This document shows, piece after piece, positions 1,040 through 19,750 of a stretch of DNA of 22,637 bases. This DNA is from a virus. The notes beneath the pieces are model-generated. The model was not told the DNA's origin. It saw nothing but the letters and a program-made list of their open reading frames with translations, and did no database searches. A program made the translations under genes and the position numbers. The DNA lies in IMG/VR virus record IMGVR_UViG_3300030389_004382, positions 1-22,637 of that record; one strand, given 5' to 3'. The stretch's first letter is position 1; every line of letters starts with the position of its first letter.

Positions 1040-1642
1040 TTATCCCCTCATTATAGAGTTGATAATAGATTCAATTTTTGTTTCAGGTTTTTGTTTTTCC
1101 ACACCTTCGTTAACTGGTCTCATAAAAGCACCGTGTGTGGATGGATTGGATACAAAATCAAAAGCGATTAGTTCGAAGTCTGGCTGAACCTCAACAGTTC
1201 CATCCTCACCATTCTTTTCATTTACTGGTTCTACACTACCTAATCCTCTTGATGAAATACCAAGTTTAATTCCTGATTTAAACAGTTCTTTTAATATATT
1301 TCCACTCGGCGTTGACAGAACTTCTACAGTCCCTAAAAGGTCGTCACCATCCCAATGCATCTCAATAACATTATGTGATGCATTATTTAAATTAACTACA
1401 GAAGATTCTGGATGGTCGAGTTCTCCGAGTGCTCTTCTTTCAGCTACCTGTTCGTCTAAATATTTAGAAACTTCTTTTAATAATACTTCTCGTGGGTAAA
1501 CTCGGCCATTTTGATTTTTTGATTCAGCTCTCTGTAGTACACCCTTTACTATTAAACGACCATCGTTTTCTTTGATACTCTCATCAATCTTTTGACGAGA
1601 TATCTCGAATGGTCTTACATCTACTAATAATTTTTTATTCAT
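1040..1642 (-). CDS. 21: Prohead core protease, T4 gp21-like (peptidase S80 type)
   Basis: This 200-residue serine protease is expected to act inside the prohead, cutting scaffold and capsid proteins after (L/I)-x-E before DNA packaging. The family signature is clear: N-Q-N-G-R-V-Y-P at residues 43-50, G-E-L-D-H-P at 73-78 with the probable catalytic His77, and G-I-S-S-R-G at 128-133 with the catalytic Ser at 130 or 131. The length matches T4 gp21 (about 210). The start ATG follows AGGG at a suitable distance. Four bases separate it from the 105-residue gene upstream, and one base separates its stop from the DUF3008 gene. The position downstream of the portal is that of T4 gene 21. I am confident of the family; the exact substrates in this phage are inferred. 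Confidence 0.93.
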   Translation of the reverse strand: MNKKLLVDVRPFEISRQKIDESIKENDGRLIVKGVLQRAESKNQNGRVYPREVLLKEVSKYLDEQVAERRALGELDHPESSVVNLNNASHNVIEMHWDGDDLLGTVEVLSTPSGNILKELFKSGIKLGISSRGLGSVEPVNEKNGEDGTVEVQPDFELIAFDFVSNPSTHGAFMRPVNEGVEKQKPETKIESIINSIMRG

Positions 1643-3126: not shown

Positions 3127-3135
3127 TATAAATAT
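3127..3135 (+). promoter_or_regulatory. TATAAATAT element in portal downstream gap
   Basis: The nine bases match the T4 late promoter core TATAAATA, but on the plus strand, opposite to all genes. They lie 37 bases or more upstream of the 281-residue gene, in a 70-base gap with no hairpin. Real promoter function is uncertain. Confidence 0.25.
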
Positions 3136-3160: not shown

Positions 3161-4921
3161 TTACTCTTTTATTATATTATCTTCACTCAACATAGATGGT
3201 TTCTTTTTAGGAAACTTATCTTTAAGTTGGTTTAAGATACCCTCACGAGCAACTACTGTACTAGCTTTTGATGTGGCAAGAGGTGATTTACCTTTGAATT
3301 CTCTTTTTCCATATGACCTATCAACGTCTTTTAGACTTTCGTGACCGTATTTATCTGTCATCGTTTCCTTATCTTTAAAAGGATCTTTTTCACTACCACC
3401 CCATTCGCCTTTTCTACTTACTTCGAAATCGTCTTCTTCTCCACCCTCCTCTTCAGGTGGTTCTGTAGCAGGATCTTTACCTTCTGTTTCTATGGCCTCA
3501 AGTCTAAACTTTTGTTTAGTGTCTTCTACAATACCTTCATAGATGTTAATCTTTTGTTCATCACTCAAATCGAAGATATTATCATAAACCCATTTTCTAC
3601 TAAATAGTTTACTATCTATTGCCTTTTCAGCAATGTCAAGTTGTTGACTCATTAACTCAATCTTTTCTTGTTCGTGAATCATCGATGGATTCTGTAGTTC
3701 TAATGTAAAATCAATTAAATCAGAATCATCAAATCCTTGTGAGTAAAGATGAACAATACCAATTTTAGTTAACTCACTTACGATAATCTTTTGTAACCTT
3801 TCAATTGTACGAGCAAAACGAACATCCTCAGCAGCAAGTGTAGCTTTACCACCACTTAAACCTTCCTCATATCCTAAGAAAGCTTTTGGTATTCTTAAAC
3901 TAGCCATCAACTTGTTTCTAAGATATTCGATGTCTTCTATCGCGTCATTGTTAGAAAGACCTGGTAGAGTATCAATCTCTGTTCCACTATCCCCACCACG
4001 AACAGGTAGAAAGTAATCTTCTGTGACCGACTCTACATTATATTTCAAATTATACTCACCTGTGGTTTGATCGATGACAGGTGTCTTCTTCATCTTATTG
4101 ATGATTCTTTGCATAAACTGTTCGACCTCTCTTGGTGGTATGTTTCCAACATCGACCTTAAATATTCTTTTTTCGGGCGCTCTCATAATTCTGTGAATCA
4201 ACATAGCGTCTTCCATCAAAGTCAATTGTTTGAATATCTTTCTTCCATTCTCTAACATTGAGCGCCCATACGGTAAAAAGTTTGTATCGGATAAAACACG
4301 AAAGTGAGCCATCTCATAATTTTCTTTTATTTCTTTCTTCTCCATGTTTATTTCAAACTGAATTAATTGTGGATTAGCAGGATCGTGGTCTTCTAATCGT
4401 GTGATATCATAAGCAGAAATAGGTTTGACATTTACCACTCCATACTTATCTACAATATCTAACTGAAGATAAAAATCACCATACTTAGTCATATTACGAA
4501 TCCAACTCCATAAATTATATTCGATGTTTATGACATCATAATATAAGTTGTGTAAAATCTTTTGTACTTTTGTATTTTCACTTTTTACTTTTAAAATTTC
4601 CCCTTCAATATTTGTAACTGTGCTTTCGTCTGAATATATGTCAAGAGCAGAAGCAATAATCGGGTCTTGATCCATTAACTCGTAATCTTTGAACAAGTCG
4701 TGTTTTCTAATCTCATAAGCAGCTCGTCTGTTTTGAGCAACCGAATATGGATTTGAATATGTGTTTTGTATCAACCTCTGATATCGGTCAATAAAATTCG
4801 ATGTTAAACTTGTTTGTGTAAAGTCTAAATCCTTTACCACCAAACGATTATCGTCTGTTTTTCTAATGATTACATTAGATTGAAATAATCTTCCAAGTCT
4901 TGTAAATAAATTATCTGCCAT
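3161..4921 (-). CDS. 20: Portal vertex protein, T4 gp20-like
   Basis: The portal protein forms the dodecameric ring at one capsid vertex. It nucleates head assembly, docks the terminase and passes DNA in and out. The 586 residues compare with 524 in T4 gp20. The N-terminal region has the typical gp20 text: R-Y-Q-R-L-I at about 45-50, Y-E-L-M-D-Q-D-P-I-I-A-S-A-L-D-I-Y-S-D-E near 80-99, and the acid/aromatic wing with W-S-W-I-R-N-M-T-K-Y-G-D-F-Y. The middle has R-I-M-R-A-P-E-K-R-I-F, L-P-G-L-S-N-N-D-A-I-E-D-I and K-A-F-L-G-Y-E, all usual in this family. The C-terminal 100 residues are acidic, then basic, and low in complexity. The start has a GGGGT site, three bases after the terminase stop. 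No sheath or tube gene lies between terminase and portal, unlike T4. Confidence 0.95.
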   Translation of the reverse strand: MADNLFTRLGRLFQSNVIIRKTDDNRLVVKDLDFTQTSLTSNFIDRYQRLIQNTYSNPYSVAQNRRAAYEIRKHDLFKDYELMDQDPIIASALDIYSDESTVTNIEGEILKVKSENTKVQKILHNLYYDVINIEYNLWSWIRNMTKYGDFYLQLDIVDKYGVVNVKPISAYDITRLEDHDPANPQLIQFEINMEKKEIKENYEMAHFRVLSDTNFLPYGRSMLENGRKIFKQLTLMEDAMLIHRIMRAPEKRIFKVDVGNIPPREVEQFMQRIINKMKKTPVIDQTTGEYNLKYNVESVTEDYFLPVRGGDSGTEIDTLPGLSNNDAIEDIEYLRNKLMASLRIPKAFLGYEEGLSGGKATLAAEDVRFARTIERLQKIIVSELTKIGIVHLYSQGFDDSDLIDFTLELQNPSMIHEQEKIELMSQQLDIAEKAIDSKLFSRKWVYDNIFDLSDEQKINIYEGIVEDTKQKFRLEAIETEGKDPATEPPEEEGGEEDDFEVSRKGEWGGSEKDPFKDKETMTDKYGHESLKDVDRSYGKREFKGKSPLATSKASTVVAREGILNQLKDKFPKKKPSMLSEDNIIKE

Positions 4922-6973: not shown

Positions 6974-9496
6974 TTAAAAAAACATTAAACCTGTTATTTG
7001 ATTTATAGGAGCAAAAGCACCTGTAAACTTATAAATATTTCCATTATACTTAAATACTAATCCTTCGGTTGGGACAATAGCATCAAACCCACCGATAGCA
7101 TTTAACCTATCCAATTGTATCTTTAACTTATTCAACTTCTTTAAGTTACCACCACTTCTTATATCAGAAATAGCAGACTTAAGTTTCTTTCTCATATTTT
7201 GTACAGACTTTGCTGGATTAACAGCCAACCACCCATCCATATTTTTCATTATTTCGGCACCGACTTCAAAGAACAATTCTTCGAATGGTTTCATATTTTC
7301 TTTGACCATCCTAGCATGGTCTAACTTATCTGTAGTCAAAGACCAATCTAAAAACTTATCGTTCTTTATTGTTGCTTTCATATCTCTTACTGAATATGAC
7401 TTATCAAAAAAAGCCCATCTCATCGTAAGTCTTTTGAGAACATTTGCTGGTATCTTATATTTAAATTGTTTGGCAGCATTAAAGATATACTCTTCCCAAA
7501 ACCTCTGATGATATAATCCAAGTGTGTCGTTATCTTTTAGTGCATACTGACTTTGTAATTTAGATAAACGACCATGAAACTTTTTCTTCATTTTACCAAA
7601 GTCTTGATGTTTAGGAACAGTAACAAAGTTAGGTTTGGATATTTTATAATGTTTCTGTATGTGTTGATTAACTTGCTTAATCATACCTTGTAACATTCTC
7701 GCACTATCCTTTGCCTGTCCTATTGGTCTACCACTATCATCATACTCTATTGCTCCATGAAAAAGTAACTCTGTAATATCATAGTTTACGACATTCTCAC
7801 TAGCAGGCCACATTACTTCTAAACTCATGAACTTACTACCATTACCAAAAATTTTATCTTGTTGTTTTTTAGATAGAGCACCGATTGCCTTTGATAAGTC
7901 CCTCATCGCATATACAAAAGCATTTCGTATAGCACCTCTACCTTTAAATTTTTTCTCTACATCTTTTATAGATAATGCTGTTTGACCTTTATTTTTAAGA
8001 TGTCCTTTGTTACGAGCAGCGATAAGTTTACCATCCTTGTAACTTATCATTAAGTTTTGACCATCAGTTTTCTCAGTAACATTATCTTCTCGGTCAAGTT
8101 TACCACTTAAACCTAACTCAATTATTTTTTTTAAATCTCCAAATGTCAAATCTTTATCGTCAAATGGATGATTCATGTGACCGTAAGCTCCTCCCATTAA
8201 TAATAACTCCTTTCCGTTTCTTGGTAAATCACTTGTGAGTGATAAAACTTCTTTTACTATTTCTAAATCATCATGTTGCTCATCACCTGTTCTAATTTTA
8301 GTTTCTTCTGGCTCCTCACTATCAAGTTTTTTTAATGTTTTGGGTGAATCATCAATCGTTATTTTTCTGGCTTTCTTCATAGGATCAACATACTGATAAT
8401 CTTGATTCGCAAGTATTTTATCAATGTGGTCTAACCAATGATTCCACAATTCACTTCCTACCAAATCCAAATCATTACCAGCACTTGGTTCAGCAACTCC
8501 AGCAGGTCCATATGATACCGAACCAATAGGACCATTTGGATATGCAGTATCCTTATAGAATGATGTGTCTTGACTGTTATAAGCATCTGTATCAGTTATG
8601 AGATTTGCTAACTCCCAACCCAATCTACCAGCCTCTACTTCTGCCCTATTCATATATGATCTCAAACTTGAAAACATACCAGGCCCATCATCTGTATCTA
8701 CACTTGCAATCTCACTCCCCTCAAAGAGGCCATGATAAACCTCGTATAATTTTCTAAATTTATTTGTCATCATATTATACACACCTTTATCGAAATATCC
8801 AAATGTTTTTTTAAAAAACTTTTGCCTTTCTTTATCGTCTATATTTGGATTACCCAACATATCCCTTGTTTTTGTTCCACTTATATTTCCAAATTGTGGA
8901 GCAGTAACAAAGTATCCGTGTTCTTCAAACCCTCTTATATCACCTTTACTTTTTTTATAATCTTGATAATAAGTTTTACCACCACCCTTTTTAGTTCCAG
9001 CTTTTAAACGACCAGCATCTTTTTGACCGAAAGCATAAACCACTGCCGTGGTTTCAGGATCAAACTTTTTAAGTAAGTTAGTTGCCACATAAGGTGTCTT
9101 TTCCTCAATAATACGATTCTTAGGAATACCAACCTTTACCATGTGACGAACTTTTTCCTTGAAGTTCATTGGATGTCGTGGTGGTTTCTTAATATTACTT
9201 GTGGTTATATAGGCTTCATCTACTTGAGATGCCAACCATTTATATGTGGCAAGATGACCTGAATGAAATGGTTGAAATCTACCACCGAATACACCGATAG
9301 TTTTTTTTATTTTGGTTGGTTGTTCATTTACTTTCTTATAACCACTACCATAAGGAACTGAGGTGTGTCCTTTCTTTTTCATCTTTTTTATTTTAGAGTA
9401 TCGTGAACCACCTTTGATAGTTCCATCACTAGCAACGATACCCATCTCGTCAATAACGGGTTTGGTTATTTCTTCTACTAACTTTTTTAAACTCAT
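6974..9496 (-). CDS. Fused HxGH adenylyltransferase and KxDG ligase-like protein
   Basis: An 840-residue protein with two nucleotidyl-transfer domains. Residues 67-215 or so form a cytidylyltransferase-like domain of the NMN adenylyltransferase type: G-V-F-G-G-R-F-Q-P-F-H-S-G-H at 68-81 and the C-terminal signature I-S-G-T-K-T-R at 205-211. Residues 430-840 look like an ATP-dependent RNA/DNA ligase catalytic domain: motif I E-K-T-D-G-Q-N at 475-481 with the likely adenylated Lys476, F-M-S-L-E-V at 556-561, motif IV E-G-L-V-F-K-Y at 811-817 and motif V around Lys823. About 200 residues between them are unassigned. The start overlaps the Nudix stop (ATGA). The leader S-L-K-K-L-V-E-E is loosely like that of the two genes before it. 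Similar fusions exist, as I recall, in marine T4-like phages; the substrate of either domain cannot be read from sequence. Confidence 0.9.
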   Translation of the reverse strand: MSLKKLVEEITKPVIDEMGIVASDGTIKGGSRYSKIKKMKKKGHTSVPYGSGYKKVNEQPTKIKKTIGVFGGRFQPFHSGHLATYKWLASQVDEAYITTSNIKKPPRHPMNFKEKVRHMVKVGIPKNRIIEEKTPYVATNLLKKFDPETTAVVYAFGQKDAGRLKAGTKKGGGKTYYQDYKKSKGDIRGFEEHGYFVTAPQFGNISGTKTRDMLGNPNIDDKERQKFFKKTFGYFDKGVYNMMTNKFRKLYEVYHGLFEGSEIASVDTDDGPGMFSSLRSYMNRAEVEAGRLGWELANLITDTDAYNSQDTSFYKDTAYPNGPIGSVSYGPAGVAEPSAGNDLDLVGSELWNHWLDHIDKILANQDYQYVDPMKKARKITIDDSPKTLKKLDSEEPEETKIRTGDEQHDDLEIVKEVLSLTSDLPRNGKELLLMGGAYGHMNHPFDDKDLTFGDLKKIIELGLSGKLDREDNVTEKTDGQNLMISYKDGKLIAARNKGHLKNKGQTALSIKDVEKKFKGRGAIRNAFVYAMRDLSKAIGALSKKQQDKIFGNGSKFMSLEVMWPASENVVNYDITELLFHGAIEYDDSGRPIGQAKDSARMLQGMIKQVNQHIQKHYKISKPNFVTVPKHQDFGKMKKKFHGRLSKLQSQYALKDNDTLGLYHQRFWEEYIFNAAKQFKYKIPANVLKRLTMRWAFFDKSYSVRDMKATIKNDKFLDWSLTTDKLDHARMVKENMKPFEELFFEVGAEIMKNMDGWLAVNPAKSVQNMRKKLKSAISDIRSGGNLKKLNKLKIQLDRLNAIGGFDAIVPTEGLVFKYNGNIYKFTGAFAPINQITGLMFF

Positions 9497-9927
9497 AAGT
9501 TTAATTCCAACACTTGTCTCATTCTATCTTCAAAAGGTCTTGGTAAACTATCTTTATCATAATAACCATAATCAACATGTTCATGGTCTAATGTAGGTTT
9601 AGGTTTACCATCCACCTCTGCTTTGAATATTTTTGTTAGACGATTATATACGCCGTCTTTTATCGTTCCTAAATATACTAAACTTTTAGGGTTAATGTCA
9701 AGCATTGTTTCTTCTTTTAATTCACGAGCAGCACCCTCTTTAAAAGTTTCTCCCTTTTCAACACCACCCATTGGAACAGACCAGAAGTTCGGATATTTGC
9801 CTTGGGTTTCAGAACGTTTTACACAAAGGACTTGACCTTCAGATACAACTGCAACACCAGCAACTTTTCTTGGCGGTTTTGTTAAATGATAGTCTCTTTC
9901 GTTCAATAAATCTTTCAATTTAATCAT
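9493..9927 (-). CDS. Nudix hydrolase with possible head-targeting leader
   Basis: A 144-residue pyrophosphohydrolase acting on some nucleoside diphosphate linked to X. The Nudix box runs from Gly54 to Leu76: G-x5-E60-x7-R68-E69-L70-x-E72-E73, with Met75 where Gly is usual. All metal-binding glutamates are present. Before it stands the usual strand G-V-A-V-V with the aromatic pair N-F-W. What is odd is the extra start, M-I-K-L-K-D-L-L-N-E-R, which is not part of the fold and is repeated in the gene upstream. L-L-N-E fits the (L/I)-x-E cleavage rule of gp21-type proteases. It overlaps both neighbours, eight bases upstream and ATGA downstream, with AAAGGA before the ATG. Next to an NMN adenylyltransferase-like protein, NAD-type compounds, dinucleotides or capped RNA are reasonable substrate guesses. 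Confidence 0.93.
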   Translation of the reverse strand: MIKLKDLLNERDYHLTKPPRKVAGVAVVSEGQVLCVKRSETQGKYPNFWSVPMGGVEKGETFKEGAARELKEETMLDINPKSLVYLGTIKDGVYNRLTKIFKAEVDGKPKPTLDHEHVDYGYYDKDSLPRPFEDRMRQVLELNL

Positions 9928-10162
9928 TTGTCATATCCTTTATGTCTTGATAAGATTTACTTTTAGTTATCATTCTTCTAATCATCATGGATTGTTTTTC
10001 TAAAGTGCGAGATAACAATCTTTCTTCTGGTGCGTGTTTTTTAATTAAATCAGATAAGTCTTCTAATGAGTCTACTGCAGATTGATATACATCTTCAATT
10101 GTATCAGACCTTTTTGATACATATCTTTCATTTAGTAAATCTTTTAGTTTTGGTATAGACAT
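9920..10162 (-). CDS. Unknown 80-residue protein with shared leader
   Basis: I do not recognise this protein. After the leader M-S-I-P-K-L-K-D-L-L-N-E-R, the rest reads as two or three amphipathic helices with many Asp, Glu, Arg and Lys and no Cys or Trp, ending D-M-T-N-D. Its first nine leader residues from Lys5 are identical to Lys3-Arg11 of the Nudix protein encoded next. A good Shine-Dalgarno (AGGAGA) precedes the ATG, and the stop lies inside the Nudix start region, so the two are translated together. Small, basic-to-neutral helical proteins with a cut N-terminal leader are what T4 internal head proteins look like, so that is my best guess, based on the leader and location only. Confidence 0.85.
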   Translation of the reverse strand: MSIPKLKDLLNERYVSKRSDTIEDVYQSAVDSLEDLSDLIKKHAPEERLLSRTLEKQSMMIRRMITKSKSYQDIKDMTND

Positions 10163-10179
10163 AGATATTCTCCTACATC

Positions 10180-10188
10180 TATAAATAT
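10180..10188 (+). promoter_or_regulatory. TATAAATAT element before the 80-residue gene
   Basis: The same nine bases in the same antisense direction, 18 bases upstream of the ATG at 10162 in a 42-base gap. The sense strand reads ATATTTATA just ahead of the AGGAGA ribosome site. Confidence 0.25.
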
Positions 10189-10204
10189 ATAAGTTTCAAA
10201 AGAA

Positions 10205-10739: not shown

Positions 10740-11849
10740 TTAACCTCTTGTTAAAATTGTATCTGTTTTTACTGCTAACCCAATTTTAATGCCTCTTGAG
10801 TGAAGAGAGTGACCTTCATTAACATATTGAGCTGAACCCGTTAACCAATGTATTTCATTTGAAATAGATAGTTGATCAGCAGAAAAACCGGAACTAGGAG
10901 TAATTAAACTAGCAGGTATATCACCTCTAATTCCACCCCTTAAAGTAACATTGCCTGATGAATCTTGAGATATACTCTGATTAGTTATACCTAAAAATTC
11001 ATTCCCATCTTCTAAAGCAAATATTTTACCACTTGAAGACATTTGAACAGGCACATAAGCATCAAGATTCTCTGCTGCAGTAAATGATGCTACTTTTGAA
11101 CTAACAGCTGCAGCTAACGAATTACCCGACAGTTGAACCTTGTCACTAAAAGACGCCGATTTTGTTAAAACTCTATATGGCATTGCTTTTGTAGTTTGAT
11201 CTCCTGCCCATAAATTATTTAGTCCAAAACTTTGAGCTGATGTATGATCGCTAGGTTCATTCTCACTAACAATACCATATCCAGCATCATTTGAAGTCCA
11301 TGCAGAAAATCGAGGATCATTATAATCAAGCAAAGAAGCAAAGGTTATGGCTTTACTGGCAGATATTTGTAAATTAGAACCTGTTAAAGAAACTTGTATA
11401 TCTAAAGTTTCATCTAATAAAGAAGAACCGCTTGGCAAATTATTACTTGTTACTATTAATTTAGTATTAGGTAAATTTATTGCTTGAAATATTCCTCTAT
11501 AATCAACATTTCCATTTCCAACAGTAGCATAAGAAGTATCATTCAAAGTGTATCCAGCTAAATCAATGTTCGCACTAAGTTTTGGACTTGTATCAGTCAC
11601 CACATCTTTGACTATATTAGTTATACTACCAATACCATCACCAGATATAGAACCAAATGAACCAGTTGAAGTTGATGAACCGCTTATATTATAATTACCA
11701 CTAGAAAAGTCAACGTCACCTGATAAATTTATACCAAAACTAGAAGTTAAATTCGCACCAATGTTTTCTAAAGGTAAAGTAATTTGGTCAATTGACATTG
11801 AAACAAAACCATCAGACAATAAACTAGCATTATTTTTTACTTTACTCAT
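10740..11849 (-). CDS. Fibre-like virion protein, S-D-G-F family, 369 residues
   Basis: This is the last of three consecutive proteins sharing an N-terminal layout: S-D-G-F near residue 12, a beta-rich stretch, a full I-S-G-S-S-T-S-T-G-S-F-G motif around 55-66, then G-D-G and D-T-S-P-K-L-S-A-N-I-D-L. The body is Ser/Thr/Gly/Asn-rich, as in phage fibres. The C-terminal 120 residues form a separate beta domain (V-P-V-Q-M-S-S-S-G-K, F-L-G-I-T, G-N-V-T-L-R-G-G-I-R-G-D) whose counterpart appears at the end of the 295-residue protein. Its ATG overlaps that gene's stop (ATGA). I infer an N-terminal virion-attachment part and a variable distal part. There is no chaperone-type C-terminal domain. Which structure it decorates, tail or capsid, cannot be told. 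Confidence 0.85.
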   Translation of the reverse strand: MSKVKNNASLLSDGFVSMSIDQITLPLENIGANLTSSFGINLSGDVDFSSGNYNISGSSTSTGSFGSISGDGIGSITNIVKDVVTDTSPKLSANIDLAGYTLNDTSYATVGNGNVDYRGIFQAINLPNTKLIVTSNNLPSGSSLLDETLDIQVSLTGSNLQISASKAITFASLLDYNDPRFSAWTSNDAGYGIVSENEPSDHTSAQSFGLNNLWAGDQTTKAMPYRVLTKSASFSDKVQLSGNSLAAAVSSKVASFTAAENLDAYVPVQMSSSGKIFALEDGNEFLGITNQSISQDSSGNVTLRGGIRGDIPASLITPSSGFSADQLSISNEIHWLTGSAQYVNEGHSLHSRGIKIGLAVKTDTILTRG

Positions 11850-12733
11850 TCTATAGGCCTCAATATTATAGTTTCTCCGTCAATAGCATTTCCAGCAACA
11901 ACTGGTCCAGATGCTAAGTCTATGGATGCCGTTTGATAACTTCCGTCACTTTTAATAAAATACTTACTACCAGTTATAAATCCGACACCATCAGGAGTTA
12001 AACTTCCAGTTACATTTGCTTTAAATCCTCTTAAAATTATCTTGGCAGTGCCAGAACTAGCATAATCATCTTTTGAAACTCCTAAAAATGTTTTCGTTAT
12101 ACCATTACCTAATTTTGAAACTGAACCACCTGAGTTTATTTTTACTGGATCACCTTTTATTAAAGCATCTGTAGTTACAAAAGTTAAAGTTGATGTGGAT
12201 TCTATTGTATCATCGAGACTATCTCCGTTAATATCAACAAAGTCAGACTCTAAATTGATGTGTTCACCACCGGCTTGAACACCCATTGTTTTGAATTCTT
12301 CAACATAAAAATCTTTTGCAAAAGTCTCATCATACAATTCTACTTTTTTCCAAATATTTATGTAATCACTTCCGCTTATTTCTTTAAAGAAAACACTACC
12401 AGAAGGAACATCTAAATTAAAAGATCCAGATAATTGAAAATTACCAATATCTAAATGACCACCTAATTGTGGTGATGAATCATCTGAGGTAGATACTGCA
12501 TCAGTTGTAATATTTGCACCATCACCTATTAATTTTCCAAAAGAAGCAGTAGACCTAAGAGAACCAGAAATATTCGTTCCTATAGTGATGTCATTATTAC
12601 TGATAAAGTTACCACTAGCTGTTATATTAAGAGTTGTTTTTATACTACTAGTTGATGTAAGCATATCGTTAGCAATGTTGGTTGTTAAAAAACCATCACT
12701 AACTATTTTTACTCTATCTTGTTGTTTACTCAT
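11846..12733 (-). CDS. Fibre-like virion protein, S-D-G-F family, 295 residues
   Basis: The middle member of the trio. The start reads K-I-V-S-D-G-F-L-T-T, nearly the same as the 1505-residue protein (N-L-V-S-D-G-F-L-T-T). It then has a diverged S-G-S-L-R-S-T-A-S-F-G-K-L-I-G-D-G and D-S-S-P-Q-L-G-G-H-L-D-I. The C-terminal half is a beta domain (G-D-P-V-K-I-N-S-G-G, F-L-G-V-S-K-D-D, A-K-I-I-L-R-G-F-K-A) typical of small phage decoration or fibre-tip units. TAATG joins it to the gene before and ATGA to the gene after, with AAGAGA as its ribosome site, which suggests tightly linked synthesis. I infer a short fibre or a head decoration protein that uses the same docking region as the giant neighbour. 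Confidence 0.85.
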   Translation of the reverse strand: MSKQQDRVKIVSDGFLTTNIANDMLTSTSSIKTTLNITASGNFISNNDITIGTNISGSLRSTASFGKLIGDGANITTDAVSTSDDSSPQLGGHLDIGNFQLSGSFNLDVPSGSVFFKEISGSDYINIWKKVELYDETFAKDFYVEEFKTMGVQAGGEHINLESDFVDINGDSLDDTIESTSTLTFVTTDALIKGDPVKINSGGSVSKLGNGITKTFLGVSKDDYASSGTAKIILRGFKANVTGSLTPDGVGFITGSKYFIKSDGSYQTASIDLASGPVVAGNAIDGETIILRPIE

Positions 12734-15700
12734 TATCTCTTTATTTGTAATAATAATTCAGTTTCACTTGTAGCAATACCCACTTCTAATGAAGAAGAAT
12801 TGTGAGTATAAATGCCAGTGCCATCTTCTATAAATACTCTTTTACCAGGAGTAAATGTATTTAGTGTGTTGTCTACATCGGCTTGTTCACCGAAAGAACC
12901 TGAAGTAAATTCTCCTGTTTGTACGGGTATTAATCTATTTCCTGAACCACTTATTAAACTACTTGTAACTTGTAAAATTTGACCTTCAAATTTTAATTTC
13001 ACCCTACTTCCAGATTGCATATATTCAGGAATTTCAGTATTAATAGAGTCTGTTGCTCCTATAATTTTGTCTTTAAAATCATCATTTGTTCTAGGATCGT
13101 CTATCACACTCGTTATGTAAGCTCTATAATGATTATCTTGACCTACATCAGTTGAAAGGTCACTTGGTAAAAATTGTTTCTGATAACTTCCCCAAGAATG
13201 AAATATAAGTGTATTACCATCATCAGAGTATATTGGAACCAGTGAATTTGGTCTGTATGTTTGAAGTTGGCCGTTCATGTTAAAAAAACAATCTATTAGT
13301 GGTGCAGGAGATTCTCTATGTCCATTATGAGTTCCACTTGGTGATATCTCAGCAAGATTAGCCTTATTTGTATCATCACCTTCCATCTGTCCCGAAATTT
13401 GATTACCATAATCACTTTTATCCATTGACCAATAAACACCAGTTAGTTCATGTGTGTGACCGTCAGTATCCGAAGGACTAAAGCCGTGAGAGGAGGGTTG
13501 TCTGTTAAACAAATTACCAGTGTTAAAACCAGTGTTCCCGTTTATTTGGGCTATTAAAGGAGGATATTCCATACGATAATCATCATTACTGTAATCAGGT
13601 CTTTTATGATAACCACTTTGTTTTGGATGGTCTAAAAATATTCTATAAGTTACGAGGATTTGTTTGATAGAGTCATTACTGCTAGAATTGGTTTCATTTT
13701 GAGTCCCAACAATCATATGAAGAAAAATACAAGTTGTTCCATTCCACTTTTTTATAGTAGGAGTAAGTATCATAGGAATGCCTGTGCTGCAAAATGTATT
13801 TGAAAATTTAGTTCTTGAACTGTAATCTGAATACCCAAAAGCGAATGCAGGCGGTGAAACAGCAAAAAAACCAATTCTTCCTCTTTCTTTTTCTATAAAA
13901 CCCCAATTTGACCATATATAACTGTATCGATTACTACTGGTACTATTACTTCTCTGTAATGCATTTACATAAACTACACCATTGCTAACTTTGACATCAA
14001 CGGCAGTTAAATAATCGTTTAAACTGGTAGAAGGCACACCTTCATCAGACATTTCTAAAAGTGATTGTACATTTAATATGTTTCCGTTTGATAATGCTAA
14101 GGCATATTTCCATCCATTATTGTATAGTGCACTATTATTATAGCCACCACCACCTAATACAAATACAAATCTATCCGTTGTTTTATCATATGCTACTTTA
14201 TTTAACCTACGAGTAAAATCATGATATTTTCTGCCATATATAGTGCTAGTATCTGAAACACTATCGGTTTGACCGCTAGAAAATTGAGACAAACCAGGAA
14301 AATTATAGAGTGTTCTAGAATTACCATAAGCATCTTTATCAAAAGAAGCACTTATACCATAATCAAAGGTTCCCGATACTGAACCTGTGTATGGACTTGG
14401 TGCAGAACCCATACTGCCTGTTAAAATCATATCAGAACCGGAAGTTATTGTTGTTCCATCAACAAAACAAACATTATATTTTCTAACATCACCATCATCA
14501 CTTGACCGATATGAAGTAACACCAGAGAGATAGTTTTGCCAAACGTTAACGAAAGCACCAGAACCACTTGTGCAAAGACCTGGTCCTCCTTGTATACAAC
14601 CAAAATCTTGTAAAGAAGACGATTGTGCTCCATAACTCAATCGATAATCAGCACCAACACTCCAAGTATCATTTGTTTCATCAACATCAAATATTTTAGC
14701 ATGAAGTGGTCCTGTTGTACTACCACTCAAATATGTTATTACAAATTTGTTTACTCCATCAAATTTTGCGACATTAGCAAAATACATACTTGCCGTATCA
14801 GGTGTTAAGACTTGACCTAATGAATGACCTAATCCTATTGAACCAGAATGTGGTATTTCTTGTTGATATAAATCAGCTGCATTTGACCTTGAAACATGGA
14901 GTTCCTCAGGAGTAACTTTCATTTGTTCACTATCGTAGCTGGCAGTAGTGTAGGAATAAAAGTCTATTTTGTAACAACCAAACTTTGGAAATTGAGATGG
15001 ATACAAGTAAATGTATTTATCGGCATTTGTTAAACCAAACCCAAAAGATAGTTGTCCATGTTGAGCCTCATATACAGATTTTCTAAATCTGTAATCAAAA
15101 CCAAAATAATCATTTGCATCAACTGTGGTATTATTGGTTGTGTCTAATTGACCAAAATGAGGTATGTTTGATGATGGTAAAGATGATGGTAAATCAAATG
15201 ATCCTTGCCCAACACCAAGTTTTGGATTAAATCCATAACATGTTTGATTTTGACCGCCATGATGATGACCAGATAACACCGATTCTAATCTATCTGTACT
15301 TGGATTCCTATAAACTAAAGAGCTTCTATATAATGGACTAGCAACATGATGGCCCGTTGTATTTGATGTACTTGCATTTATGGTATTATTGAGATCAGCC
15401 CCACCTAACGTTATTTTATCAAACGAACCTGTTTTAACAGTTAATTTATTAGAAACGTTTATATGTGAACTTGCAGTTACTTCATTTTTAAATCTTAATT
15501 TATGTGCAATTAAATCATGTCGTTTAGAATTTACTGGTTGTGGTCCAGAACCAATTGTTTCAGCTGAATATCCTCTACCCTCATCATAGGAAACTTGAAC
15601 CATCATGTGGGTTGAACTAGAACCTGAACCCATAGAAAAAAGTAAATCCCCATTCTGTAACACATGCATGTTATCTATGAATCTACCATAAGTATAACCA

Positions 15701-17250
15701 GGTCTTGCATTGTTAACGTCAGTCAAAAGTTGACTTCTTTCATTTTCTGGAAAAAAATCAAAAATAGATTTTGAAACTGTTGTTTTTGCCATCATTGTTC
15801 TGATATTCCAAGGAATAAGCAAATCTGATTGAAATAACATTGTTTGTAATCTTGGATTATTTGTGGCTATATCGCCTTGATAATTATCCTGCTCTTGAGT
15901 ACACCAAATAATTCTTCTACCATCATTAACTACTTGAAATCCTCTAGTTGAGTACCAAGTACCATTACCAGTTATCGTAGGTTCATCATCTGCAAAATCA
16001 GCAAAAGCAGAACCATATCCTCCTGGTATATCTGCATAAAAACTGTTTACATCTGCTCCACTCCAGTATATTGTATTATCTACTCCTTGAATTTGAGACT
16101 CGAAAAAAGGATCTGAAAAGAAGAATTGTTGAAAATCTACTACTCCGTCAGTCGTATCTTCATAATCAATAAAAGCAGGACCCATTTGAGTTCTTCCGTC
16201 TGGTTTCATGATTAAATTAGCCCATCTTCTTTCGTATCGTGAATTATAATCATGAGTTGAAAGTTGTCTACTATCTAAAAATAAACCTTTATAATTGTCG
16301 CTATCTTGACTGTAATCATCATTAGCATCAGTTTGACTTCTAAAAAAATTAGTTAAACTTCCTATATGTCTATCAGTTGTACCATTTGGACTAAAAATAC
16401 TTTCAGAATTATAATTGTAATCTGAACTAGCACTATAAAAATCGATATGAGGTCTATAGTAATTTGTGCTACCACCTGACCTCATATGAAACACACCGTA
16501 AACTTTTCCTTTTGCTTTGTCCACTACAATATTAAAATCTTGCATAGCCGCGTTTCCACCTAATGCAGCAGCTGATGTATAACTTCTAGATGTAGTAGCT
16601 CCGAGTGTGAATATTTGGTTACCAACTTGGCCAGTAAAACCTCTTATATCCCATTTACCACCGTAATTATCATAATCATAACCAGCTAATATACCAACGA
16701 GATGAGCATGTTGTGAATATAATATTCCGTATCTTCCATTTCTCTCAAGTGGTGATAAAATTGAGTTTTGGTAATTATCTTGATTAAAGGGCACGTAATT
16801 ACCACTTCCCCCTCGAAGATCCCAAAGATCTCTTGTTACGGCACTTTCATCTTTTAAATTTCTTAAATCCCAACCACCACCAGAAATAGCTTTAAAATTT
16901 AAATTAGCTGTTTGAGATGTTTCTAAAGTTTTATCAACACTACTGGTAGTAAAAATTTGATTCTCATTTAAGTCTAAATTAGCACTTAGTTTTGGAGTAG
17001 AATCACCTGACATTTCAAATGTCATATTTGTCAATTCACTACCATCACCAATAATCTTACCAAAAGAACCTTCAGATGTTACATGCAAATCACCACTTGT
17101 TATATCTATATTACCATCAACTTTAAGACCACTTCCACTAAAGCTAGCACTAACTAAAAGACTTCCAGTATGATTTATTTTAGTGTTGGATAAATCTGTT
17201 GTGAGAAAACCATCAGAAACTAAATTTGCCTGTTGTCGTGTTTTGCCCAT
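12733..17250 (-). CDS. Giant fibre or adhesin, S-D-G-F family, 1505 residues
   Basis: This is the largest gene in the window. Residues 1-100 hold the trio's docking layout: N-L-V-S-D-G-F-L-T-T, a weak motif copy S-E-G-S-F-G-K-I-I-G-D-G, and D-S-T-P-K-L-S-A-N-L-D-L. The 1,300 or so residues after it are rich in Tyr, Asn, Ser, Gly and Asp, with no motif copies and no membrane segment. They look like one or more large beta structures. S-Y-D-E-G-R-G-Y near residue 555 resembles a sialidase-type Asp box, and S-S-D-D-G-D near 917 is weaker, so a propeller is possible but unproven. The C-terminus (R-V-F-I-E-D-G-T-G, V-G-I-A-T-S-E-T-E-L-L-L) is a small beta unit recalling the ends of the two smaller proteins. 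AGGATATAGGG precedes the ATG. It is probably the main host-contact protein. Confidence 0.88.
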   Translation of the reverse strand: MGKTRQQANLVSDGFLTTDLSNTKINHTGSLLVSASFSGSGLKVDGNIDITSGDLHVTSEGSFGKIIGDGSELTNMTFEMSGDSTPKLSANLDLNENQIFTTSSVDKTLETSQTANLNFKAISGGGWDLRNLKDESAVTRDLWDLRGGSGNYVPFNQDNYQNSILSPLERNGRYGILYSQHAHLVGILAGYDYDNYGGKWDIRGFTGQVGNQIFTLGATTSRSYTSAAALGGNAAMQDFNIVVDKAKGKVYGVFHMRSGGSTNYYRPHIDFYSASSDYNYNSESIFSPNGTTDRHIGSLTNFFRSQTDANDDYSQDSDNYKGLFLDSRQLSTHDYNSRYERRWANLIMKPDGRTQMGPAFIDYEDTTDGVVDFQQFFFSDPFFESQIQGVDNTIYWSGADVNSFYADIPGGYGSAFADFADDEPTITGNGTWYSTRGFQVVNDGRRIIWCTQEQDNYQGDIATNNPRLQTMLFQSDLLIPWNIRTMMAKTTVSKSIFDFFPENERSQLLTDVNNARPGYTYGRFIDNMHVLQNGDLLFSMGSGSSSTHMMVQVSYDEGRGYSAETIGSGPQPVNSKRHDLIAHKLRFKNEVTASSHINVSNKLTVKTGSFDKITLGGADLNNTINASTSNTTGHHVASPLYRSSLVYRNPSTDRLESVLSGHHHGGQNQTCYGFNPKLGVGQGSFDLPSSLPSSNIPHFGQLDTTNNTTVDANDYFGFDYRFRKSVYEAQHGQLSFGFGLTNADKYIYLYPSQFPKFGCYKIDFYSYTTASYDSEQMKVTPEELHVSRSNAADLYQQEIPHSGSIGLGHSLGQVLTPDTASMYFANVAKFDGVNKFVITYLSGSTTGPLHAKIFDVDETNDTWSVGADYRLSYGAQSSSLQDFGCIQGGPGLCTSGSGAFVNVWQNYLSGVTSYRSSDDGDVRKYNVCFVDGTTITSGSDMILTGSMGSAPSPYTGSVSGTFDYGISASFDKDAYGNSRTLYNFPGLSQFSSGQTDSVSDTSTIYGRKYHDFTRRLNKVAYDKTTDRFVFVLGGGGYNNSALYNNGWKYALALSNGNILNVQSLLEMSDEGVPSTSLNDYLTAVDVKVSNGVVYVNALQRSNSTSSNRYSYIWSNWGFIEKERGRIGFFAVSPPAFAFGYSDYSSRTKFSNTFCSTGIPMILTPTIKKWNGTTCIFLHMIVGTQNETNSSSNDSIKQILVTYRIFLDHPKQSGYHKRPDYSNDDYRMEYPPLIAQINGNTGFNTGNLFNRQPSSHGFSPSDTDGHTHELTGVYWSMDKSDYGNQISGQMEGDDTNKANLAEISPSGTHNGHRESPAPLIDCFFNMNGQLQTYRPNSLVPIYSDDGNTLIFHSWGSYQKQFLPSDLSTDVGQDNHYRAYITSVIDDPRTNDDFKDKIIGATDSINTEIPEYMQSGSRVKLKFEGQILQVTSSLISGSGNRLIPVQTGEFTSGSFGEQADVDNTLNTFTPGKRVFIEDGTGIYTHNSSSLEVGIATSETELLLQIKR

Positions 17251-17263
17251 ATAACCCTATATC

Positions 17264-18322
17264 CTATGGAAGTGCTAAAACATAGGCAAGAGGAGCACAC
17301 TCATCACCACCCCAATCTAAATATACAGTATTGCTACTAGTTCTAGCAAATAAATCATAAGTATATGATTGACCAGGAGTTAATCCAGTAATTATTCTTT
17401 CAGGATGAACTGTTTTATCATCTGCTTCTCCATCACTATAGGTCGTATAGTCAGAATAAGTTGTACTTGGACTTGTTCCTTGTAGAGCCCACTTAAAATA
17501 AACTCTTCTACTAGTAGAGGAAAAGTCTATGTGTATTTGAGCATGAAGTAAAACTTTACCACTTGCTGGTGCGTCAAATGTTAATCTATAGTAATCAGAA
17601 TTAAAAGCAACATAACTTGTAGTTAGCGTATATGTAAGAGTTCCAGAAGTAGTATCGCTATAACCATCTTGTGCAGCAATTATCCCACCACCACTACCAG
17701 CAGAAACTTCCTCTCCACCTAGTAAAATTTTACCAAAGGAAGCAGTCGAATTTACAGAACCACTTACTCCACCATCAACATATAGTTTACCCGTTGATGG
17801 TGTGAAAGATAAGTCATCTGTATTAATACTAGCGCTTACTAAATTACCACTTGTAAAATCAGGATCAGATGTAAACATTGGAAATAAAGAAGATGTAGTA
17901 GCAGTATCAGGTGTTATATTTAAATGAGTACCAGTTGATATAGTTTCAAAAGCAACAAATTCTAAAACATCATTTACAGTTGCACCAGATGATAAAACAA
18001 CAGAAGTTCCGTTTGTTGCGGTTACTTCAGTTGAATCTAATTTTATACCATTTTGATATACATCAAGTAAACTAGCACCGTAATTTACATTAAATGTAGT
18101 TTGTCCAGAAGTAGCAACAGACCTTGTGACAGTTCTTGAAGTTGATGTTCCACCACCAGAACCGCCGCCTGTTCCAAAACCACTAGCAGCTGCTGATTCT
18201 GATACAGCAGTTGTAAAGTTGTTTCCACCAACCATGACATGTCCAAAAGAACCAGTTGAAGTTAATGAGCCGCTTATATCTCCAACAATTGAACCAGTAA
18301 TATTGGGTGTGTGTATTTTCAT
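17264..18322 (-). CDS. Modular tail-fibre protein, 352 residues
   Basis: Four parts can be seen. Residues 1-55 carry one S-G-S-L-T-S-T-G-S-F-G motif and a spacer ending S-G-F-G-T-G-G-G-S-G-G-G. Residues 60-130 match a domain I know from many marine phage fibres (T-S-G-Q-T-T-F-N-V-N-Y, V-Y-Q-N-G-I-K-L, A-T-N-G-T-S-V-V-L). A second, altered motif S-G-S-V-N-S-T-A-S-F-G follows near residue 190. The C-terminal 130 residues (G-K-V-L-L-H-A-Q-I-H-I-D-F-S-S, I-T-G-L-T-P-G-Q-S-Y-T-Y, Y-L-D-W-G-G-D, ending A-L-P) are a beta domain seen at fibre ends. The glycine run is a likely hinge. A TGGAAAA site precedes the ATG. The first 55 residues share long exact DNA with the partial gene at the right edge, which suggests gene conversion. 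Confidence 0.85.
   Translation of the reverse strand: MKIHTPNITGSIVGDISGSLTSTGSFGHVMVGGNNFTTAVSESAAASGFGTGGGSGGGTSTSRTVTRSVATSGQTTFNVNYGASLLDVYQNGIKLDSTEVTATNGTSVVLSSGATVNDVLEFVAFETISTGTHLNITPDTATTSSLFPMFTSDPDFTSGNLVSASINTDDLSFTPSTGKLYVDGGVSGSVNSTASFGKILLGGEEVSAGSGGGIIAAQDGYSDTTSGTLTYTLTTSYVAFNSDYYRLTFDAPASGKVLLHAQIHIDFSSTSRRVYFKWALQGTSPSTTYSDYTTYSDGEADDKTVHPERIITGLTPGQSYTYDLFARTSSNTVYLDWGGDECAPLAYVLALP
18192..18235 (-). repeat. 44-base exact repeat shared between two fibre genes, copy 1
   Basis: Identical to 21239-21282 in a different gene about 3 kb away. With one or two mismatches the match extends through the following motif copy and back into the glycine-rich hinge. It encodes V-G-G-N-N-F-T-T-A-V-S-E-S-A. 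Confidence 0.95.
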
Positions 18323-18341
18323 TTACGATTTTCCATTTTAA

Positions 18342-18350
18342 TATAAATAT
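18342..18350 (+). promoter_or_regulatory. TATAAATAT element before the 352-residue fibre gene
   Basis: Third copy, again on the plus strand, 20 bases upstream of the ATG at 18322 in a 28-base gap. Three of the four gaps in the window carry this exact string. Confidence 0.25.
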
Positions 18351-18599
18351 TTAGCCTGTATGTGGATACCATAAGTATTTTGTTATCTCTGATGCGCTTT
18401 TTAACAAATTTTCTTTAGTTGTGCCATGGTCATTAACTCCAAATTCAAATAAATCTAACCATGCTTGTATTTCAGAAACAGTCCATGAATCATCTGGTTT
18501 TGTTCCTTTAATTGTTCCGATTTCTACATACTCTTTTAACATCAAATAAGTTGTAAAATCAAGTTCCCTTCCAAATTCACCTTCTGTGTATTTAAGCAT
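18351..18599 (-). CDS. Unknown 82-residue protein between fibre genes
   Basis: I do not recognise this protein. It is acidic and helical, with W-T-V-S-E-I-Q-A-W-L-D-L-F-E-F-G-V-N-D-H-G in the centre and an aromatic end, K-Y-L-W-Y-P-H-T-G. It contains neither the S-T-G-S-F-G motif nor the Ser/Thr/Gly bias of every neighbour, so it is probably not part of the fibre shaft. The start overlaps the preceding stop as TAATG with GAGGTAG upstream, so it is made together with the 383-residue fibre. Small unrelated genes inside fibre clusters often encode fibre assembly helpers or caps; that is the most reasonable guess here, without sequence support. Confidence 0.8.
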   Translation of the reverse strand: MLKYTEGEFGRELDFTTYLMLKEYVEIGTIKGTKPDDSWTVSEIQAWLDLFEFGVNDHGTTKENLLKSASEITKYLWYPHTG

Positions 18600-19750
18600 T
18601 AATCTACCTCTTCAGTTTTGATTATTATTTGTAAATTGGCCATGTACCAATCATTACCACCACTATCTTGAGTTCCATCATGATGATGTTGAATTCCACA
18701 TACTATTAGATCACCTTTTTCTAAAATGAGACTACCAGACCTATGTAGATAATCTTTCATATTACCAGGCACGGTTCCTGTAGCAGTTTGTTGGGTAACA
18801 TGATATTGTGGATCTGTCCAAGTAGAGGCTTCTGCTTTAAAGTAAAATTGACCATCTGGTTCATGGAAGGCGGTACTTGTATCAGAATCCCAGCTTGGAT
18901 GTTGGAATACATTTGTATTACCTGAGCTAGATACTAGGTTTCCACCACCACCGCCAGTGTCTGTCAGTCCAAATTTTTGTATTATATGACTTCTACTTGG
19001 TTGCATTTGGTCAGAAGTAGGACATGACCAAAACCCTATAGGAGTGTCGCTACCCATTGTATTTGTTGCTGAGCCACTATTGTTTAAACTTACAGAATGT
19101 CCGCTAAATATGCTTCCAGTTTTACAACCCCTAGACCACGCATTAGCAGTTGGGGCGTCTGCATTACCACCAGTGAAAACTGCCATACCAACAGGTATTC
19201 GTGCTTGTGCCTCAGATGTTGTGCTAGTATAAGGCCTGTAAGCATCTGCGTCATTACAGATTAGAAACATCAAAACAAGATTATTTTGAGCTCTTAGGTA
19301 ACAGCTTCCTGCAGCAAATACTTCTTTGATTTGCACTTTTGTTGGAGCCACATAATTAGCACCTGATTTTCTAGTTATATGATACTCAAAAAGACTGTAA
19401 GGACCAGTACTGGTGGAGGTGCTTTCATCCAATTTGTATAGCCATCCGGCCGTTCTACTTGTATCTGATTCCTGATATTTCACTTTCGCATTGTAGCTAC
19501 CCCAAATAACATCCCAATAATCTCCGCCGTAGCTATCAGTACCTGTGGCAGACAATATGCGATGAGTTTGCGTTACTGTAGAAATACCACCGCCGCCGCC
19601 TGTCCCAAAACCACTAGCAGCTGCTGATGAAGAAACTGCTGTATCAAAATTATCTCCACTAACTATTAAGTGTCCAAATGAACCTGTTGTATCAAGAGAA
19701 CCACTAACTTGACCACTTGCCGTAATATGTGATGATGCTATAATTGGCAT
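18599..19750 (-). CDS. Modular fibre or adhesin, 383 residues
   Basis: The N-terminal 55 residues repeat the neighbours' pattern: S-G-S-L-D-T-T-G-S-F-G-H-L-I-V-S-G, then S-S-A-A-A-S-G-F-G-T-G-G-G-G-G, a probable virion-docking part plus glycine hinge. The remaining 325 residues form a distinct domain that I do not recognise, with several cysteines (in G-S-C-Y-L-R-A-Q, F-L-I-C-N-D, F-W-S-C-P-T), a His-rich H-H-H-D segment near residue 358, and a beta-strand ending L-Q-I-I-I-K-T. The His and Asp cluster could hold a metal. The ATG overlaps the stop of the partial gene (TAATG), with GAGGAAA upstream. I infer a receptor-binding tip that has been swapped onto a common base. Confidence 0.85.
   Translation of the reverse strand: MPIIASSHITASGQVSGSLDTTGSFGHLIVSGDNFDTAVSSSAAASGFGTGGGGGISTVTQTHRILSATGTDSYGGDYWDVIWGSYNAKVKYQESDTSRTAGWLYKLDESTSTSTGPYSLFEYHITRKSGANYVAPTKVQIKEVFAAGSCYLRAQNNLVLMFLICNDADAYRPYTSTTSEAQARIPVGMAVFTGGNADAPTANAWSRGCKTGSIFSGHSVSLNNSGSATNTMGSDTPIGFWSCPTSDQMQPSRSHIIQKFGLTDTGGGGGNLVSSSGNTNVFQHPSWDSDTSTAFHEPDGQFYFKAEASTWTDPQYHVTQQTATGTVPGNMKDYLHRSGSLILEKGDLIVCGIQHHHDGTQDSGGNDWYMANLQIIIKTEEVD

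Follow-up and report, generated by a model that had tools for sequence, protein, structure and literature searches.

The window analysed here is the whole of a 22.6-kb virus record (IMG/VR IMGVR_UViG_3300030389_004382; 22,637 nucleotides), and two neighbouring genes on its minus strand, adjoining with an overlap of a few bases, encode a Nudix hydrolase and an 80-residue protein (Table 1). On the same strand lie genes for an 840-residue protein, a portal protein and a prohead protease, the last of which had been recognised as gp21-like in a first-pass annotation made from the sequence alone, an assignment borne out by the Peptidase_S77 match.

Table 1. Features of the window on which the analysis turns.
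Feature	Position	Strand	Match or remark
Prohead protease, T4 gp21 type	1040..1642	-	PF03420 (Peptidase_S77) 5e-32; PHROG 207; presumed cutter
Portal protein, T4 gp20 type	3161..4921	-	PF07230 3e-75
840-residue protein	6974..9496	-	NMNAT-like nucleotidyltransferase (residues 67-153) and RNA-ligase-like domain (residues 401-840)
Predicted cut site in the 840-residue protein, between GYKKVNE and QPTKIKKTIGVFGGRF	9323..9331	-	Cassette insertion point in relatives
N-terminal head of the 840-residue protein, MSLKKLVEEITKPVIDE	9446..9496	-	Same head on relatives with a different next module
Nudix protein ORF, MIKLKDLLNERDYH...	9493-9927	-	ORF present
Nudix hydrolase body	9493..9897	-	PF00293 2e-19; PHROG 1198 MutT/NUDIX
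Nudix leader, MIKLKDLLNE	9898..9927	-	Predicted cut after Glu10
80-residue protein ORF, MSIPKLKDLLNERYVS...	9920-10162	-	ORF present
80-residue protein body	9920..10126	-	Family-less (Pfam, PHROG, NCBIfam)
80-residue protein leader, MSIPKLKDLLNE	10127..10162	-	Predicted cut after Glu12
Upstream region of the 80-residue gene, TATTTATA element and GGAG	10163..10202	-

The first-pass annotation had also noticed that the two neighbours share the nine residues KLKDLLNER near their N-termini, and this holds: the codons at 9895-9921 (Nudix; AAA TTG AAA GAT TTA TTG AAC GAA AGA) and at 10124-10150 (80-residue protein; AAA CTA AAA GAT TTA CTA AAT GAA AGA) differ at five of 27 bases, all synonymous. The bodies that follow are unrelated, as was claimed, with a clear Nudix domain in one protein and zero matches in Pfam, PHROG and NCBIfam for the other. 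Across 19 Nudix homologues K3, L4, L7 and E10 are invariant, and 80-residue homologues with a readable start bear the leader in loci L003, L007, L018, L019 and L023-L028. When we looked for Nudix homologues that had kept the enzyme and lost the leader, we found 23 distinct leader-bearing sequences and 3 non-scoring ones, two of which retain a degenerate leader (MSIPKLIDLLE and MIKLKDVLLLE), while the third is embedded in a protein of the 840-residue type.

The same leader is found on other proteins of related phages, a search that the first-pass annotation had proposed. The loci were fetched via similarity to the Nudix protein, the 80-residue protein and gp21, never via the leader alone, with some search words overlapping the leader. 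In 109 such loci a strict regular expression found the leader at 110 N-termini, the bodies behind it forming 32 families, and a weight matrix at a threshold of ≥8 bits picked out 149 of 1141 gene N-termini against 3 of 5650 internal methionines, an enrichment of about 250-fold; the matrix was trained on the leaders of those same loci, which somewhat favours the N-terminal count, but this bias is too small to explain the contrast. An exact DNA pattern for MIKLK[DE]LLNE matched at least 119 stretches in IMG/VR. In a wider set of related IMG/VR contigs, which includes loci selected for the leader via that pattern, MIKLKDLLNE leaders stand on 349 proteins belonging to 105 body families (37 with at least two members), a few low-scoring families probably being there by chance, such as one in L127 that scores 11 bits and resembles peptide deformylase. 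The same gene blocks hold a second flavour of leader, MKLTKSKLKEMIREEL(L)NE, for which the isolates of the phage collection gave no match to the MKLTKSKLKEMIREEL form at E≤10, queries this short being weak. The isolates closest to this lineage, although diverged from it, are Flavobacterium phage immuto and Microcystis phage Mel-JY01.

Leader genes are situated in the late/head gene cluster. In contigs of 130 and 96 kb the high-scoring leaders are mostly confined to one or two blocks, the remaining genome being nearly leader-free, and in the gp21 loci all 79 of 79 leader genes lie on the gp21 strand, which most genes there share. As to the host, no relative of the terminase was found in 84,980 genomes.

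Among the leader-bearing bodies are Nudix, superoxide dismutase, Zeta/AAA_33 kinase, ART-PolyVal and Mom domains. The Fe/Mn superoxide dismutase (L102:14331-14966; PF02777 4e-35), with the leader MKLKTILKE, is possibly a packaged antioxidant enzyme. A leader protein with an ART-PolyVal domain (L244:8682-10241, minus strand; PF18760 5e-12) and two others with ART-like motifs seen by eye only (YRGV in L248:9629-10096 and YHAT in L152:482-904, both minus strand) are candidate Alt-like injected enzymes. The Mom DNA-modification protein (L195:2517-3263; PF25680 2e-24) begins with the leader MIKLKDLMLE, and Mom-like proteins without a leader occur elsewhere in the set. We do not claim an ART identity for the 300-residue WYPAHTK family, since its AlphaFold model (pLDDT 70) resembled no PDB fold significantly and ART folds came only at ranks 48-50, with E about 3.

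KLKDLLNE is encoded by 41 DNA versions that differ on average at 4.1 of 24 bases, which confirms the earlier proposal that the peptide rather than the DNA has been conserved and rules out a DNA-level element. The surroundings of the leader record exchange. In loci with the 80-residue gene, the 80-residue protein starts with MSIP (MSMP in L009) and the Nudix protein with MIKL. In the 11 loci without this gene for which upstream sequence is available (L005, L008, L010-L012, L014-L017, L020 and L021), the Nudix protein itself starts MSIPKLKD directly behind the 80-residue gene's own upstream sequence, CTTTTGAAACTTATATATTTATAGATGTAGGAGAATATCT. L013 is concordant with these loci, yet has only 29 bases upstream, and L006 is exceptional in having MIKL with a different upstream gene, as in L004. 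The leader codons of L008 begin like those of the 80-residue gene and end like those of the Nudix gene, which places the crossover within the leader. The leader is thus a seam for body exchange by recombination, and bodies turn over quickly among close relatives.

The anatomy of the leader is that of the T4 capsid-targeting peptide (CTS). In T4 IPIII the first 10 residues suffice, residues 4 and 7 acting in targeting and residues 8 and 10 in processing (PMC9026906, review); the leader is likewise hydrophobic at 4, 7 and 8 with Glu at 10. Across the 65 families in the MIKLKDLLNE register we found L4 in 65 of 65, L/I/F at position 7, L/I/M at position 8 and E10 in 64 of 65, although the matrix or the DNA pattern had in part selected for these core positions; from residue 11 onward, which is free of such selection, constraint is absent. 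The end of the leader, L-[LI]-x-E, matches QL[ILV]xE↓A (the arrow marking a cut or border), the putative site at which these phages cut their major capsid protein, which was placed by analogy with T4, aligning 19 distinct sequences to the gp23 cut to give [KR]Q[LI][ILV]xE↓A/N. When the T4 structural region was scanned with the leader matrix, gp24 alone scored comparably (7.8 bits, the next best of 57 reaching -0.1). Its N-terminus MAKINELLRE, at whose Glu gp24 is presumably cut, is the closest T4 peptide and has the same K-hydrophobic-x-x-L-L-x-E spacing, although gp24 is the capsid vertex protein whereas the leader here sits on cargo. A CTS-like propeptide of 10-20 residues has been described for gp24 (PMC5694885).

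Kinship to the T4 CTS is a matter of position pattern and not of identity, since the T4 IP leaders agree with it only in spacing and score poorly on the leader matrix (ipIII -5.3 and ipI -10.3 bits); the leader would thus be a capsid-targeting variant that has the CTS anatomy while sequence kinship with the IP leaders was not found. The T4-type capsid-targeting leader ending in an L-x-E site that was suggested at first pass is nonetheless strongly supported by the comparative evidence, because about 100 non-homologous bodies share the leader, the T4 key positions are conserved and its end equals the presumed cut sequence of the major capsid protein. A point against it is that [LIV]xE is no more than slightly depleted within leader bodies (observed/expected 0.96, against 1.16 in control genes), though folded domains may hide the sites that do occur there.

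The 840-residue protein extends this pattern to longer polypeptides. Its start, MSLKKLVEE, is present as reported at first pass but is better read not as a loose leader but as MSLKKLVEEITKPVIDE, a conserved and different head that precedes a kinase module in L057, L059 and L067. Its NMNAT-like nucleotidyltransferase domain matches PF01467 (4e-9) and TIGR00125. The C-terminal domain carries the nucleotidyltransferase motif EKTDGQNL, and the best 17 PDB matches of its AlphaFold model (pLDDT 77) are almost all RNA ligases (T4 Rnl1, Rnl2, archaeal); since these fold matches reach E values of only 0.02-0.2 with low TM-scores, we regard an RNA ligase as likely rather than proven.

Relatives insert zero, one or more cassettes between GYKK[VL]xE↓ and the nucleotidyltransferase (xxIKKTIGVFGGRF), among them a Zeta/AAA_33 kinase (L057, L059), a CCA-adding/PolyA polymerase head with HD (L049), HD (L241) and Nudix (L102), and L021 has the cassettes of L007 and L019 one after the other. 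Leader-family bodies also lie inside longer proteins. When we queried these with bodies stripped of their leader, an [LIV]xE in the subject ended precisely where the body begins in 47 of 83 distinct cases, other offsets averaging about 2. Collapsed by family and flank the count is 40 of 75, whereas null draws averaged 1.7 and in 2000 of them never exceeded 7, and 11 of 13 families contribute, about half of the interior borders being without an exact [LIV]xE. Typical borders are KESVSE↓KAERDYK and ESVDE↓AVSPKGW, whose likeness to the leader is limited to the site. Of 29 distinct insertions in the 840-residue family, 14 have in-phase [LIV]xE sites at both ends, to within four residues (null 0.2%), several others missing the phase because the aligner slid the gap further. 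A motif-blind test by all-against-all BLAST gave only threefold enrichment, since the shared V-x-E linkers themselves align, and the body-query test is the cleaner of the two. The 840-residue protein represents one form of a polyprotein-like series of cassettes, its relatives having gained or lost kinase, CCA-adding, HD or Nudix modules at [LIV]xE sites. Proteins encoded after gp21 that start MP[SF][VK]SK..QQ(K/R)F likewise hold many cassettes with KESVNE-type linkers (for example L034:9094-10710 and L044:4377-6629), and have cassettes, namely the VPGLEWM module, in common with the ligase-type protein of L023.

The compared genomes themselves display the modularity of the leader, its conservation as a peptide, its agreement with the capsid protein site, the borders between cassettes and the seam; packaging, cutting, injection and the task of the cargo are what we infer. 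We consider it very probable that KLKDLLNE is the core of a capsid-targeting propeptide of 10-12 residues. The amphipathic leader would recruit the newly made protein to the prohead core, where the gp21-type protease would cut after the leader Glu during head maturation and the peptide would leave. The freed bodies, here the Nudix enzyme and the 80-residue protein, would remain with the DNA and be injected. The same sites would separate the cassettes of long proteins such as the 840-residue nucleotidyltransferase-ligase, so that several cargo enzymes could be delivered as one polypeptide, the leader doubling as the seam at which bodies are exchanged.

Several known systems share parts of this arrangement. 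In T-even phages leaders common to unrelated internal proteins are already known, and T4 IPs block GmrSD restriction enzymes (PMC12373910, PMC3012670) and are injected (PMC12373910). As in the T4 CTS proteins (IPI, IPII, IPIII and Alt), an N-terminal peptide of about 10 residues stands on otherwise unrelated bodies that vary between close relatives, and a gp21-type protease is encoded. Changing E10 to D in T4 IPIII blocks the cut. The differences are the leader itself (KLKDLLNE versus KTYQEFIAE in T4), its breadth (about 100 body families versus 10 or so reported for T-even IPs), its enzymatic cargo (Nudix, SOD, kinase) and the occurrence of the same sites between the cassettes of long proteins. 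In phiKZ and SPN3US cleavage by the prohead protease follows the Glu of A-x-E type motifs, and the diverged gp53/gp54 have identical N-termini (PMC5694885); the ejection proteins of these phages thus resemble the present ones in the cut after Glu and in shared N-termini on diverged proteins, but their propeptides mostly exceed 100 residues, few proteins are involved, and cassette exchange is undescribed there. Polyvalent proteins also join several phage effector domains in one polypeptide, are thought to be packaged and injected, and include the ART-PolyVal domain found here; the 840-residue family, with its nucleotidyltransferase and ligase-like domains and the kinase, PolyA_pol/CCA, HD or Nudix of its relatives, fits this description. 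Their processing has been ascribed to an internal zincin-like or assemblin-like peptidase (Iyer et al. 2017; PMC5512222), whereas here gp21-type sites lie at the borders, and Pfam found no peptidase domain in the 840-residue protein or five relatives.

The alternatives differ in how much of the evidence they accommodate. The leader could target the prohead and be cut there while the proteins bearing it serve as core/scaffold or DNA-condensing parts of the head and not as injected effectors; the largest leader family (60 members) is indeed close to gp21 at most loci and resembles a conserved core gene, and many bodies are small and Lys-rich, but no structural role is apparent for Nudix, SOD, kinase, ART-PolyVal and Mom domains and the bodies turn over fast among close relatives, so we judge this unlikely, if far from negligible. 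It is improbable that the leader is a seam kept so that genes can be shuffled, with the recurrent [LIV]xE linkers as joints that stay uncut, a reading to which the leader-internal crossovers and the modular insertions of the 840-residue family lend weight, since a DNA seam would keep its bases rather than accumulate 41 versions and since the border motif is precisely a protease-type motif. We give little credence to a docking peptide for some other complex (membrane, portal or transcription machinery), unrelated to the prohead protease: short amphipathic peptides have many docking roles, and structure prediction models the leader as a detached low-confidence helix, but the location in the late/head block, the match to the putative capsid protein site and the gp24 N-terminus, and the sites at interior borders speak against it. 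Chance, or a gene start recently duplicated in tandem in this phage alone, would suit two adjacent genes overlapping by a few bases but is effectively ruled out, since more than 100 contigs carry the leader and about 100 body families bear it.

Injected phage proteins mostly go unrecognised, since they resemble hypothetical genes. With a leader that can be read in sequence, more than 100 unnamed families in uncultured phages become candidate injected effectors, a set likely to include enzymes of anti-defence and of repair, and the predicted start of each mature protein can be taken from the cassette borders. There is a good probability that the capsid-targeting leader marks a large hidden set of injected proteins, because it recurs on about 100 unrelated bodies and closely resembles the T4 head-loading tag. 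The open-access literature yielded no report of this leader, its breadth, gp21-cut cargo polyproteins or prohead-protease sites as cassette borders.

The cassette contents suggest RNA/tRNA repair or nucleotide/NAD defence early in infection, and RNA/tRNA repair by the cassette protein would counter host anticodon nucleases. More tentatively, we propose as a possibility that a widespread T4-like lineage injects interchangeable enzymes, leader-borne or in polyproteins, which the head protease frees as a kit for tRNA repair or nucleotide restoration; its contents (RNA-ligase-like, kinase, CCA-adding enzyme, HD and Nudix) would act in the first minutes of infection.

Three further observations concern the surroundings. 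TATTTATA occurs on the coding strand, usually as TTATATTTATATATG and often just upstream of genes (window positions 3127, 10180, 12829 and 18342; loci L029-L108), its orientation in gp21 loci being coding-strand in 197 cases and opposite in 41; it may be the late promoter in these phages, reversed relative to the T4 TATAAATA. At 10740-21966 on the minus strand of the window, neighbouring tail/fibre-like proteins repeat G.ISGS.TSTGSFG near their N-termini or internally, perhaps as a shared assembly module. Finally, Nudix domains were matched within annotated portal proteins of the Burkholderia phages Bcep43 and Bcep781 in the phage collection, a further hint of Nudix enzymes riding in virions.
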